Position numbers and translations under genes: made by a program
Source of the DNA: a virus
Length of the DNA: 24,034 nucleotides
Virus record (IMG/VR): IMGVR_UViG_3300046000_002606
Coordinates: 1-24,034 of that record
Strand: one strand, 5' to 3'
Part shown: positions 1,560 through 10,453 of the stretch, in pieces
Layout of the letters: every line of letters begins with the position of its first letter
How positions within the stretch are numbered: the stretch's first letter is position 1
The notes under the pieces: model-generated
The model's input: the letters and a program-made list of their open reading frames with translations, nothing else
Databases searched by the model: none
Told to the model about the DNA's origin: nothing

Positions 1560-1798
1560 TACGCTATCAATGTATTGTAATAACTCTCGGGTAGATCAAA
1601 GCATGTGTTTCGATCATCTGTGCCATCATCGTCAATGACAATTTCACCTGCAGATAATAGCTGATCAATAGCTGCAGCGAAAAGTAGATTGTCGTATGGT
1701 ACTGCCTGATCACGGCATTCCCGGCGCAAATCTTGGCGATATTGTGGACCGCTTGATTTCATCATGTCAACGATGCATTCAGTGCATGGATATGTCAT
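1559..1798 (-). CDS. Hypothetical protein, possibly winged-helix-like (79 aa)
   Basis: The ATG at 1798 is preceded by GAAGGACA, a good ribosome site, and by a degenerate copy of the repeated promoter/leader cassette. The sequence MTYPCTECIVDMM has a CxxC pair at residues 5-8, which lacks partners for a full zinc site. Residues from about 38 (LLFAAAIDQLLSAGEIVIDDDG) read like a recognition helix followed by a beta wing, as in small winged-helix proteins, so a DNA-binding role is possible but only a guess. Its stop lies inside the repeated 20-base leader of the next gene. Confidence 0.6.
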   Translation of the reverse strand: MTYPCTECIVDMMKSSGPQYRQDLRRECRDQAVPYDNLLFAAAIDQLLSAGEIVIDDDGTDDRNTCFDLPESYYNTLIA

Positions 1799-1841
1799 TA
1801 TGTGTCCTTCAGAACGTGTTGAAAATTAAACCGATGGACGG

Positions 1842-1871
1842 ATTATGCCAACCTTTGAATACCCTTGCTTG
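1842..1871 (-). promoter_or_regulatory. Degenerate promoter (cassette copy A)
   Basis: By alignment with copy C this has CATAAT (1842-1847) and an 18-bp spacer starting AGGGTATT, as in copy C, but the -35 has decayed to CAAGCA (1866-1871). It overlaps the 3' end of the gene ending at 1843 and precedes the gene starting at 1798. It is probably weak or activator-dependent. Confidence 0.45.
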
Positions 1872-2073
1872 CTGTAGGGGCAATATTGATAAGGGGATGC
1901 ACGGTGAAAAATCCACTTAGGTGGATTGTTGCCCCTGTCAGACGGTAGCACTTAGCCCATGCCATGGCTTCGCTGTAGGTATGAGTGTAATGACGCTTGG
2001 TGCAACCTATGCCTATGATGGTATAGCCTATACGCTTAGCGACGGCGGTGGAAATGATGCGAGAGATTTTCAT
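1843..2073 (-). CDS. Small conserved-looking phage protein (76 aa)
   Basis: The protein begins MKISRIISTAVAKRIGYTII and has a central segment THTYSEAMAWAKCYRLTGAT. The pattern (basic N-terminus, TYxEAxAWAxCY) resembles short phage proteins I have seen unannotated. A ribosome site, AAAGGAAA, lies in the 20-base sequence shared with the gene starting at 1538. The last 10 or so codons (ending GIQRLA) run across the degenerate promoter cassette at 1842-1871, so the C-terminus doubles as regulatory DNA. Function unknown. Confidence 0.6.
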   Translation of the reverse strand: MKISRIISTAVAKRIGYTIIGIGCTKRHYTHTYSEAMAWAKCYRLTGATIHLSGFFTVHPLINIAPTASKGIQRLA

Positions 2074-2074
2074 A

Positions 2075-2094
2075 TGTGTTTCCTTTCAGGAAAT
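2075..2094 (-). repeat. 20-bp leader repeat, copy 2, with hairpin over the ribosome site
   Basis: This is the exact second copy of the leader at 1540-1559, placed at the same distance from the ATG of the gene starting at 2073. The same 5-bp stem overlaps the ribosome site. Confidence 0.7.
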
Positions 2095-2114
2095 GTAGTG
2101 CAGGAGTACACTGA

Positions 2115-2135
2115 TATGGGCTTTATAGGCCCATA
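2115..2135 (-). other. Intergenic hairpin after the 254-aa gene
   Basis: TATGGGC and GCCCATA pair perfectly (7 bp) around a 7-base loop, 30 bases past the stop at 2165. No T-tract follows on the minus strand, so it is not a classical terminator. It may protect or process the transcript, or be a weak terminator. The surrounding 2074-2164 gap holds no convincing gene. Confidence 0.5.
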
Positions 2136-2164
2136 CCGCTGTGCTATCTGCCTTGCGGCCTTGC

Positions 2165-2929
2165 TCAGCCTACATATGCTGCCTTTGCTGTGCCGTGTGC
2201 CACAATCGCTATCGACTTTGCCGCCACAGTAGTGCCAGCACACAATCCACATTTGTCACATGTGGTTTTGAAACCTGCTTCGGCACTGGCAGGGCACAGC
2301 GCTTCTCCCTTATCAAGGGAAAGCTTACCCTGTGCAATCCATTGGTTGACGGGGATAACCCGGAATGTACGCTGTCCCTTAGCCCATGCACTCTGTGCCA
2401 CTGTCAGGTTATCGGCACTCACCATGTACAGCGCTGCATTGAACGAAGCACTAGGCATGTTGCTTTGATGGCTGTATCCTGTGTGACCCTCAGCTTCGCT
2501 GATAAGCGCTGTCCATACGCTCTGTGGCACTGCAGCACCATCGCCGTATGTACCGATTCTAACCATGCGGTCCTTGCCCAATGATGCCAATTGGTCCGGT
2601 GCTGCTACAGGATACTTACCTGCCTTGAAACCTTTGTACACAATCAGCACACCTTGTCCCATGTTGACATAGCATGTACGGCCTACGGCAAGCTTTTTGT
2701 CTGGGCTGTTGGTAGCAGTGCCACGATGGATACAGGTGCCACAGATAGAGTAGTCTTCGCCGCTTTTGTTTGCATCACGTGGGTCTATGTCACTACGTAG
2801 TATGTATGTCTGCATCATGTTGGCTGTCTTTTTGTTGCTGCTTTTTGTCAGTGCAACGACGACGATGGGCTTGCCATCAAGTGTAGACGGACCGCTATAG
2901 ATGATGTAACCTGTAGGTGCTTTAGCCAT
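2165..2929 (-). CDS. Conserved phage protein of unknown function, Cys-rich (254 aa)
   Basis: This is the largest gene of the minus-strand block. I choose ATG 2929 (MAKAPTGYIIYSGPSTLDG), which has an AGGACA site in the repeated leader; an upstream ATG at 2980 in frame would lie within the promoter's -10 element. The N-terminal segment GPSTLDGKPIVVVAL, a GEDYSICGTCIHRG cluster near residue 75 and a C-terminal TTCDKCGLCAGT cluster are landmarks. I recall this combination in a widespread phage family of unknown function (annotated as a DUF), not verified here. The cysteines could form one or two metal sites. A strong promoter stands directly upstream (2979-3008), so it is probably transcribed strongly, and a 7-bp hairpin lies just after the stop. 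Confidence 0.8.
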   Translation of the reverse strand: MAKAPTGYIIYSGPSTLDGKPIVVVALTKSSNKKTANMMQTYILRSDIDPRDANKSGEDYSICGTCIHRGTATNSPDKKLAVGRTCYVNMGQGVLIVYKGFKAGKYPVAAPDQLASLGKDRMVRIGTYGDGAAVPQSVWTALISEAEGHTGYSHQSNMPSASFNAALYMVSADNLTVAQSAWAKGQRTFRVIPVNQWIAQGKLSLDKGEALCPASAEAGFKTTCDKCGLCAGTTVAAKSIAIVAHGTAKAAYVG

Positions 2930-2978
2930 GATATGTGTGTCCTGTAGAACGTGGTTGAAAATTGAATCGACGGGTTGC

Positions 2979-3008
2979 ATTGTAGGGGCTTTTTAAAGGC
3001 CCCGTCAA
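2979..3008 (-). promoter_or_regulatory. Sigma-70-type promoter with palindromic spacer (cassette copy B)
   Basis: TTGACG (3003-3008), an 18-bp spacer and TACAAT (2979-2984) form a strong promoter for the 254-aa gene starting at 2929. The spacer contains an inverted repeat, GGGGC...GCCCC on the + strand (2985-3003), placing a dyad between the two promoter elements, where a repressor or a MerR-like activator could act. Confidence 0.85.
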
Positions 3009-3022
3009 GTGTAGGGTATTTG

Positions 3023-3190
3023 TCAGGCTGTCAGTGCATTGTACAGGTCGGCCAGTTCATTGTATGTTGCAACCTTACCCGTCGCTACAGCTACAAGCAT
3101 GGACATGTTATCTACGTTACCGCACTGAAGCTTTGCTGCTTCGTAAAGCTTTGCTTCTTGCAGGGCGCTGATGACGTCGTTTGTTTGCAT
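3023..3190 (-). CDS. Small hypothetical protein (55 aa), first gene of the minus-strand block
   Basis: A short frame begins at ATG 3190 with MQTNDVISALQEAKLYEAAK and ends LADLYNALTA at TGA 3023-3025. It is supported by a near-consensus promoter about 50 bases upstream (3236-3264), an AGGACA ribosome site, and the same leader type as the genes at 2929 and 1798. The sequence looks wholly alpha-helical. A competing frame at 3112-3312 reads through the promoter and lacks a ribosome site, so I discard it. No family recognised. Confidence 0.7.
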   Translation of the reverse strand: MQTNDVISALQEAKLYEAAKLQCGNVDNMSMLVAVATGKVATYNELADLYNALTA

Positions 3191-8242: not shown

Positions 8243-8611
8243 ATGGCTAAAGAATTATCAGAAATGCACAAGAAGTTTCTTGAAGTTTTGTTTGACGAAG
8301 CAGGCGGTAACATTAACGTTGCTAAAGAGCTTGCTGGTTTCTCTCGTGGCTATAGCACTCGTCAGCTAACCAACTATCTCAAAGAAGAGATTATTGATGC
8401 TACCCAACTCTACATTGCAATGAATGCCCCTAAAGCTGCTTATGCTGTAGTTGGCGCTATTGACGATCCTACACAGCTTGGTATTAAAGAAAAGATTAAT
8501 GCTGCTAAAGACTTTCTTGATCGTGCTGGTTTTGTTAAGACAGAGAAGGTGGTTGTTGAAGCAACCAATGGTGTAATGATATTACCTGCGAAAGACCGCG
8601 AGGAAGACTGA
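8243..8611 (+). CDS. terS: Terminase small subunit
   Basis: The small terminase recognises phage DNA and stimulates the large subunit at packaging initiation. The protein (122 aa) begins MAKELSEMHKKFLEVLFDEA; residues 1-55 (helix, GGNINVAKELAGF, STRQLTNYLKEEI) look like the N-terminal helix-turn-helix domain common to small terminases. The middle is helical (APKAAYAVVGAIDDPTQLGI), suggesting the oligomerisation core, and the tail has GVMILPAKD. It is followed at once by the terminase-associated ORFs. Length is within the usual range. It has a good AAGGA site 6 bases upstream of the ATG. Its stop and the next ATG share one base. Confidence 0.75.
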   Translation: MAKELSEMHKKFLEVLFDEAGGNINVAKELAGFSRGYSTRQLTNYLKEEIIDATQLYIAMNAPKAAYAVVGAIDDPTQLGIKEKINAAKDFLDRAGFVKTEKVVVEATNGVMILPAKDREED

Positions 8612-9075
8612 TGAGTGGTTTAGGGGCGTGGGTGCTTCCACAGCCAATAGATACAACAACATATGTTAGCATCCCAAAAATAGGAAGAACTGTTCCGTTT
8701 GGTTATAAAGAAGGGGTTGATGATGGTTGGCTTGACCCCATACCAAACGAGCTTGAGGCGTTAGAGAAAGCTAAGAAGCATTTAAAGCAGTATTCATCTA
8801 GAGATGTTGCAGCATGGTTGAGTAAGCTAACTGGTAGAACAATATCTCACGTAGGTTTGTTGAAACGAATCAAAGATGAACAGTCCCGTAAAAGAAAATC
8901 TGCAACTTATCGCAAGCTTGCCCAGCGCTACGAGGAAGCGCTTAGGAAGGCCGAAGAGTACGAGCAGCGCCTCGGCGTCAAAGAAGAAGACCCCTACCTC
9001 AGCAGCGACAAATATAGAAAGCTCAGAGCCAGTTTTGACAGTGGCACCCTTGGAGACTCAGAACATTGTATTTAA
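8611..9075 (+). CDS. DNA-binding-like ORF upstream of and overlapping TerL (154 aa)
   Basis: ATG 8611 has a GAGGAAG site and overlaps the terS stop. Residues about 28-100 run VPFGYKEGVDDGWLDPIPNE, SSRDVAAWLSKLTGRTISHV and GLLKRIKDEQSRKRK, which reads as a helix-turn-helix domain. A highly charged coiled helix follows (YRKLAQRYEEALRKAEEYEQ). I recall this VPFGY...RDVAxWL...TGRxISHxGL segment as the N-terminal part of large terminases in related phages (memory, not verified). Here it is in a different frame from the ATPase and overlaps it by 200 bases. Either it is an independent accessory packaging protein, or it is joined to TerL by a +1 frameshift. Confidence 0.7.
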   Translation: MSGLGAWVLPQPIDTTTYVSIPKIGRTVPFGYKEGVDDGWLDPIPNELEALEKAKKHLKQYSSRDVAAWLSKLTGRTISHVGLLKRIKDEQSRKRKSATYRKLAQRYEEALRKAEEYEQRLGVKEEDPYLSSDKYRKLRASFDSGTLGDSEHCI

Positions 9076-10453
9076 ACCCAATGCTGGCCCTCAGTCAGTC
9101 TTTCTAGCAGCTTCTGAGCGTGAGGTTTTGTATGGCGGTAGTGCTGGTGGTGGTAAAAGCTATGCCATGTTAGCTGATCCTTTGCGATATATGGGTCATC
9201 CACAATTCTCTGGTTTGTTGTTGCGGCATACAACCGAAGAACTTCGTGAACTTATCTGGAAATCTCAGGAGATGTATCCCAAGATTTACCCCGGTATTAA
9301 ATGGAGTGAGCGTAAGATGCAATGGCAGGCTCCTTCAGGGGCTAGATTGTGGATGTCATACCTAGATAGGGACGAAGATGTGCTTCGTTATCAGGGACTA
9401 GCCTTTAGTTGGATTGGTTTTGACGAACTTACGCAGTGGCATACGCCGTTTGCATGGAACTATATGCGTTCGCGGCTTCGTACTCCTGCAGCAGACCTTC
9501 CTATTTTCATGAGAGCAACGACAAATCCGGGTGGGCCGGGTCATGCTTGGGTGAAAAAGATGTTTATTGACCCTTCGCCTGCTAGAAAAGCTTTCAATGC
9601 CACCGATATTGAAACAGGGCAGACAATGTTGTACCCAAAAGGCCACAGCAAAGAGGGTTTACCCCTGTTTAAACGTAGGTTTATACCAGCAATGCTGGCG
9701 GACAATCCTTATTTGGCAGAATCTGGTGATTATGAAACCATGTTGTTGTCTTTGCCAGAACAACAACGCAAGCAATTGCTAGAAGGCAACTGGGATGTGG
9801 CTGAAGGTGCAGCATTTCCAGAGTTTAATAGAACTATTCACGTTGTTGAGCCTTTTGACATTCCACAAAACTGGACTAGGTTTAGGTCAGGCGATTATGG
9901 GTATGGAAGCTACAGCGCAATAGTGTGGTTTGCTGTGTCTCCTAGCGATCAACTCATAATTTATAGGGAATTATATGTATCTAAAGTTATTGCTATTGAT
10001 TTAGCTAAGATGATTAATCAAATTGAAGCAAAAGATGGGATAATTAGGTATGGTGTTTTAGACAGTAGCTGCTGGGCTAAGCGTGGTGATAACGGCCCCT
10101 CCATTGCTGAGCAAATGATACTGGAGGGCTGTCGTTGGCGTCCTGCTGATCGTAGTGCTGGTAGTAGGGTTGCTGGTAAGCAGCAGTTACATAGGCGATT
10201 ACAGACTGATCCATTTACAAATATGCCTAAAATGGTTATAACAAGTAACTGTATTAATGTTATTGCTCAATTACCTGTAATACCATTAGACAAAAGAAAT
10301 CCTGAAGACATTGACACTAAATCAGAAGACCATTTGTATGACGCTATTAGGTATGGTATTATGAGTAGACCGCGTAGTAGTATTTGGGACTATAATCCTA
10401 CTACTTCAAAGGCATCAGGAATGCCTATGGCTGATAAAACTTTTGGCTATTGA
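8876..10453 (+). CDS. terL: Terminase large subunit (ATPase and nuclease)
   Basis: The enzyme translocates DNA into the prohead and cuts it. Walker A is GGSAGGGKS (residues 87-95), Walker B WIGFDE (179-184), and a coupling motif ATTNPGG lies at 214-220. The nuclease domain shows the expected acids: GDYG near D340, VLDSS near D396 and DHLYDAIRY near D489. Length (525 aa) is usual. The frame is open only from 8864; ATG 8876 has no ribosome site, and no other ATG precedes Walker A, so the true N-terminus is uncertain. The first 60 residues are Ser/Thr/Lys-rich (GRPKSTSSASASKKKTPTS). They overlap the upstream ORF in another frame, so the protein may be a frameshift product. Confidence 0.95.
   Translation: MNSPVKENLQLIASLPSATRKRLGRPKSTSSASASKKKTPTSAATNIESSEPVLTVAPLETQNIVFKPNAGPQSVFLAASEREVLYGGSAGGGKSYAMLADPLRYMGHPQFSGLLLRHTTEELRELIWKSQEMYPKIYPGIKWSERKMQWQAPSGARLWMSYLDRDEDVLRYQGLAFSWIGFDELTQWHTPFAWNYMRSRLRTPAADLPIFMRATTNPGGPGHAWVKKMFIDPSPARKAFNATDIETGQTMLYPKGHSKEGLPLFKRRFIPAMLADNPYLAESGDYETMLLSLPEQQRKQLLEGNWDVAEGAAFPEFNRTIHVVEPFDIPQNWTRFRSGDYGYGSYSAIVWFAVSPSDQLIIYRELYVSKVIAIDLAKMINQIEAKDGIIRYGVLDSSCWAKRGDNGPSIAEQMILEGCRWRPADRSAGSRVAGKQQLHRRLQTDPFTNMPKMVITSNCINVIAQLPVIPLDKRNPEDIDTKSEDHLYDAIRYGIMSRPRSSIWDYNPTTSKASGMPMADKTFGY
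8992..8995 (+). other. Candidate +1 ribosomal slip site (CCC-T)
   Basis: In the 8611 frame, GAC CCC TAC lies at 8989-8997. A +1 slip on CCC (to CCT) would continue ACC TCA GCA in the TerL frame, joining ...GVKEEDP to TSAATNIESS. CCC followed by U is a known +1-prone context. No stop codon adjoins the site to stimulate it, so evidence is limited to frame offset and motif. Confidence 0.3.

Follow-up and report, generated by a model that had tools for sequence, protein, structure and literature searches.

A terminase N-terminal domain probably encoded as a separate protein by a conserved gene overlap in HMO-2011-type phages

When 338 prokaryotic genomes were surveyed in 2008, no co-directional gene overlap longer than 60 nt was accepted as real (PMC2478687); among reference genomes of double-stranded DNA viruses, overlaps of more than 50 nt are annotated in 61% (PMC7017920). 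The long unidirectional overlap of holD and rimI (32-56 nt; PMC2478687) resembles the arrangement described here in that co-directional genes share sequence in different reading frames, but it is far shorter than the overlaps of the HMO-2011-type phages, which span 116-314 nt (from the start of TerL, the terminase large subunit, to the stop codon of the gene upstream, across the 87 sequences introduced below). The closest counterparts are the cultured phages HMO-2011, CRP-1 and CRP-2, of subgroup I (the subgroup names of HMO-2011-type phages are those of PMC9038755). They have the same overlapping pair, and it is visible in their deposited annotation; the arrangement is therefore not unseen. 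In HMO-2011, ADW08443 overlaps AFV50590 by 122 nt; the overlap analyzed here is longer, at 200 nt. The word "overlap" is not used in the HMO-2011-type paper (PMC9038755), and no discussion of the overlap between TerL and its upstream gene was found in the literature searched. A different solution is found in the subgroup III roseophages CRP-3, CRP-212, CRP-235 and CRP-738, and in the rhizobiophages phiM6 and RHph_N3_19: both domains are present there, in unchanged order, but as one uninterrupted TerL ORF of about 618-659 aa, which in the subgroup III roseophages lies downstream of TerS, the terminase small subunit.

The stretch of DNA under analysis (the window) is a virus record of 24,034 bases in which TerS, an upstream ORF, TerL and the portal gene follow one another; the features described here are all on the forward strand. 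TerS (122 aa, 8243..8611) matches PHROG phrog_2538 with E=4.5e-5, and its orthologues in relatives are annotated as terminase small subunit. The upstream gene (8611..9075) encodes 154 aa. TerL (525 aa, 8876..10453) matches Pfam PF03237 (Terminase_6N) with 30.6 bits, above the cut-off of 22, and its translation contains the Walker A motif GGSAGGGKS. Its frame is at +1 to the upstream ORF, is closed by a TGA at 8861..8863, is open from 8864 and has its first start at ATG 8876; 200 nt (8876..9075) are consequently open in both frames. The two ORFs, the +1 offset and the overlap are where the initial annotation had put them. It had also called the overlap unusually GC-rich, and the GC content is indeed 0.55 at 8900-9019, the other windows between 8540 and 9379 having 0.36-0.50, but 0.525 is also reached elsewhere in TerL, at 9440-9559.

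Relatives of the window, placed by tblastn, are phages of the HMO-2011 type. Removing near-copies at 95% nucleotide identity left 87 non-redundant sequences, the window included, among which TerL identity to the window ranges from 64% to 97%. Whether related genomes keep the +1 offset, as the initial annotation had asked, has a simple answer: TerL stands at +1 to the upstream frame at all 165 fetched loci that have both genes (a count made before de-duplication). A separate upstream ORF accompanies TerL in at least seven cultured phages (HMO-2011, CRP-1, CRP-2, CRP-9, CRP-13, CRP-345 and CRP-603), and the window's 154-aa protein recurs at 100% identity in two more contigs. A quick TerL tree groups the window with CRP-1 and its kin (subgroup I-like), apart from subgroup III, in a clade (SH-aLRT 95) whose 32 rows comprise 31 with a long overlap and one gapped. 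The phages with a fused gene form the sister clade to these long-overlap phages; pelagiphages with short overlaps or gaps fall outside both. The root of the tree is not relied on, because the outgroup and HTVC033P have long branches. In the pelagiphages related to HTVC103P the two genes overlap by 14-26 nt or are separated by gaps of 128-146 nt; in some (L363, L365, L369, L374 and others) the gap contains a small hydrophobic ORF-like stretch. In HTVC033P (L166) an unannotated HTH ORF at 1041-1379 shares about 110 nt with TerL, whose start is annotated at 1270, again at +1.

The start of TerL is a fixed point. Its alignment column holds a start codon in all 87 sequences (62 ATG, 24 GTG and one TTG; the start was picked by hand for L154, L045, L041 and L048, where an earlier start codon is also open), and in 86 of them the TerL frame is closed by a stop 0-21 nt 5' of it, as it is by the TGA of the window. 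The upstream-frame residue that spans this start varies (N/H/S/D/Y/R/I); the last base of its codon is T in 87 of 87, whereas 39% of comparable codons in other parts of the genes end in C. That relatives might start TerL at the equivalent of ATG 8876, behind a separate upstream protein, was what the initial annotation had named as speaking against a fusion, and it is what they do. Its remark that ATG 8876 lacks a ribosome site also holds: no canonical Shine-Dalgarno sequence was found 5' of it, and Shine-Dalgarno matches at the TerL start across relatives stay at background level; several other starts in the window are likewise without a clear one. Mean local folding energy of the predicted mRNA structure is weakest at the TerL start (-1.7 kcal/mol), slightly stronger in the adjoining windows (-2.6 and -2.9 kcal/mol), and -3.7 to -7.6 kcal/mol at distances of 40 nt or more, including windows of equal A+T. 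In the proposed mechanism, the ribosome would bind within the translated upstream gene and initiate at the conserved codon, with weak structure assisting at an SD-poor start, and translation of TerL would begin on its own at ATG 8876, with 200 nt of the upstream gene still to come. Ribosomes translating the upstream gene probably help TerL to start; translation of the two genes would then be coupled. (The comparison also brings out annotation that needs correction, in loci L173, L164, L420 and L161: TerL begins further upstream than annotated in CRP-345 (annotated at VLYGG), CRP-603 and CRP-207, and of the upstream gene just a short fragment is annotated in MW202701 and CRP-207.)

Nature has separated the two genes in two contigs, L322 and L332. 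In L322 the HTH gene occupies 734-1132 and TerL 1597-3165, with no overlap left: between them lies an HNH-like ORF (1104-1595; motif HHVDHIIPLQ; Pfam HNH 11.8 bits, below cut-off), and downstream of it the overlap is present once more, in diverged form. The copy on the HTH side has an intact HTH frame, and its TerL frame begins LMNDSVRTKLEASASG and then meets a stop; the copy on the TerL side keeps the TerL start and MENNTSIKLKASASTQAMRKRQSPKRK in the TerL frame, and its HTH frame has a stop near the start. L332 too has an HNH-like ORF between the genes, and each overlap copy is open in the frame that is needed; L322 and L332, being alike here, may represent one event. No intron family model matched there. 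The comparison shows each copy to have kept just its needed frame, and the two genes to be independent of each other in these contigs.

Do both frames of the overlap matter? The open TerL frame might be a by-product, either because TerL really starts after the upstream stop or because the tail of the upstream protein is unselected. The lack of a Shine-Dalgarno sequence at ATG 8876 fits such a reading, as does the later TerL start chosen by several annotators. With nothing but the upstream protein to preserve it, an open TerL frame has a chance of 0.023 in the window and a median chance of 0.119 per relative; the frame is open in 87 of 87, relatives that are not independent of one another. Synonymous change was measured over 43 disjoint pairs, with bootstrap intervals, as the fraction of conserved residues that have switched codon. 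In the upstream frame it drops from 0.349 in the upstream-only part to 0.158 in the overlap, which shows that the TerL frame imposes constraint; in the TerL frame the overlap has 0.133, where the TerL linker has 0.328 and the TerL core 0.311, and this shows the corresponding constraint by the upstream frame. The intervals for overlap and non-overlap do not meet. A lowered synonymous rate could, on its own, also be caused by constraint at the level of RNA. The start column, invariant although the upstream residue across it varies, and L322, which retains the TerL frame of the overlap where the upstream gene imposes no constraint, add to the case against a single meaningful frame, and such a reading is very unlikely. 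The alignments instead support purifying selection at the protein level on both frames: the earlier impression that both look protein-like in the overlap is borne out by a synonymous change roughly halved in each, and the proposed check in related genomes gave low values in both.

Are the two frames, then, joined in one chain? If ribosomes were programmed to shift frame by +1 (or -2) in the overlap, an HTH-TerL fusion would result, as sole or additional product. Genes with programmed +1 frameshifts are alike in their +1 offset, which is present here in every locus, in their long overlap and in having fused homologues; the single chain of the sister phages shows both domains to be workable when fused, so that a low level of frameshift fusion retains a small probability; and the window does have a CCC-T at 8992..8995, in the reading frame of the upstream ORF, which the initial annotation had proposed as the slip site. 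The likeness ends there. CCC-T occupies that column in 6 of the 17 sequences having it and occurs in frame anywhere in the overlap in 8 of 87; AAA-A/G occurs in all 87, yet its best-conserved column reaches 54%; the remaining motifs are rare, and no +1 slip motif stands at a conserved position in the overlaps of the 87. Not being conserved, the CCC-T was rejected as slip site. The downstream ORF has its own start codon, at one column throughout, and in L322 and L332 the genes lie apart, both intact. A programmed frameshift is extremely unlikely on these grounds, and of the two possibilities originally entertained, dual coding stands, on its conserved TerL start and low synonymous change in both frames, while fusion by +1 slippage finds no support, given the unconserved CCC-T and the separated genes of L322 and L332. 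(That the frames might be joined by a group I intron was considered separately and rejected: neither 8400-9300 of the window nor 700-2000 of L322 gave a plausible Rfam match.) What of a trivial origin, a single fused gene split by an indel from sequencing or assembly, or by fission in one phage not long ago? Sister phages do have the fused gene, and in one survey of cellular genomes long co-directional overlaps were mostly misannotations (PMC2478687). Against this stand the two other contigs with an identical 154-aa protein and an arrangement that recurs across many samples, in 87 non-redundant sequences and in at least seven cultured phages. Misassembly and a recent fission confined to one phage are thereby excluded, and this possibility, raised at the outset, is left with next to no probability. 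The reading that we favor, with a probability of about 0.9, is that of a conserved unidirectional +1 overlap between two separately initiated genes, one for a 154-aa DNA-binding-like protein and one for TerL, translated from ATG 8876; it derives from comparison of genomes.

What is the upstream protein? AlphaFold2, given an alignment of the window and viral-contig loci only, returns a confident core (mean pLDDT 81.8) made of a hairpin, two short helices and one long helix. Its structural matches among viral models include a phage protein, uncharacterized and 97% identical, and, as weak matches, resolvase-like proteins; a fold search of the PDB gave no significant match (best E=0.3). The structural resemblance to resolvases and serine integrases is no more than weak. 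No convincing family emerged from Pfam, PHROGs or PDB sequences, and the 'Recombinase' domain of serine recombinases (PF07508) was rejected, with no match among 42 homologues and 12.0 bits in the TerL of phiM6, below the cut-off of 21.1. With no named family to go by, we infer the DNA-binding-like (HTH-like) nature of the protein from its predicted fold and its place. Its kinship is clearer. Related phages were said at the outset to carry this domain fused to the N-terminus of TerL, and a search for single-chain proteins found exactly that in the roseophages and rhizobiophages named above: profiles of the separate protein and of the fused domain align with 98.9% probability in hhalign (E=2.5e-17), and 71 loci are classed as fused. 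The upstream gene would accordingly produce, as a protein of its own, a homologue of the TerL N-terminal domain of sister phages, and since that homology is joined by a place between TerS and TerL, the protein probably acts with both in DNA packaging. (In two loci TerL is interrupted at the Walker A motif by group I introns (Rfam RF00028): L418, Rhizobium phage RHph_N3_13, at 1262-1479 with 60.7 bits, and L266 at 1293-1566 with 54.6 bits; in RHph_N3_13 the two TerL exons are annotated as separate genes.)

Which form came first? Weak similarity to the domain (hhalign 75.7%, E=2.4e-5) is seen at the N-terminus of TerL in Vibrio phage CHOED, Aeromonas phage 1233 and Slicky01, a hint that the fused form may be the older. 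The helical stretch that follows the HTH part belongs to the TerL ORF in HTVC103P and to the HTH ORF in phages of the long-overlap clade, a hint, in turn, at separate fissions. The residues K, S, P, T and R abound in the overlap as read in the TerL frame, and over the first 50 TerL residues the median net charge is +7. (The structure model of TerL is poor, with a mean pLDDT of 49 over tail and core alike, and is unusable for the tail.) The most likely account is that a terminase N-terminal domain is here encoded as a separate protein and that a basic TerL tail has been written over its gene, probably over the older helical region and after fission.

The pair is, by comparative analysis, apparently a new and well-supported case of long overlapping phage genes: a long co-directional overlap that passes comparative tests and involves a hallmark gene, in a group of marine phages that ranks among the most abundant. 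Natural controls are on hand in phages in which the two domains are fused, overlapping, just touching or separated by an HNH-like ORF, and the finding points to a testable accessory domain of the terminase. One can go further, tentatively and at somewhat less than even odds, and think of a packaging machine in three parts, in which a DNA-binding domain that is elsewhere carried on TerL has become a subunit of its own, with a new basic TerL tail encoded over its gene. If so, subunit and TerL would be tied together in evolution and perhaps, through coupled translation, in dose.
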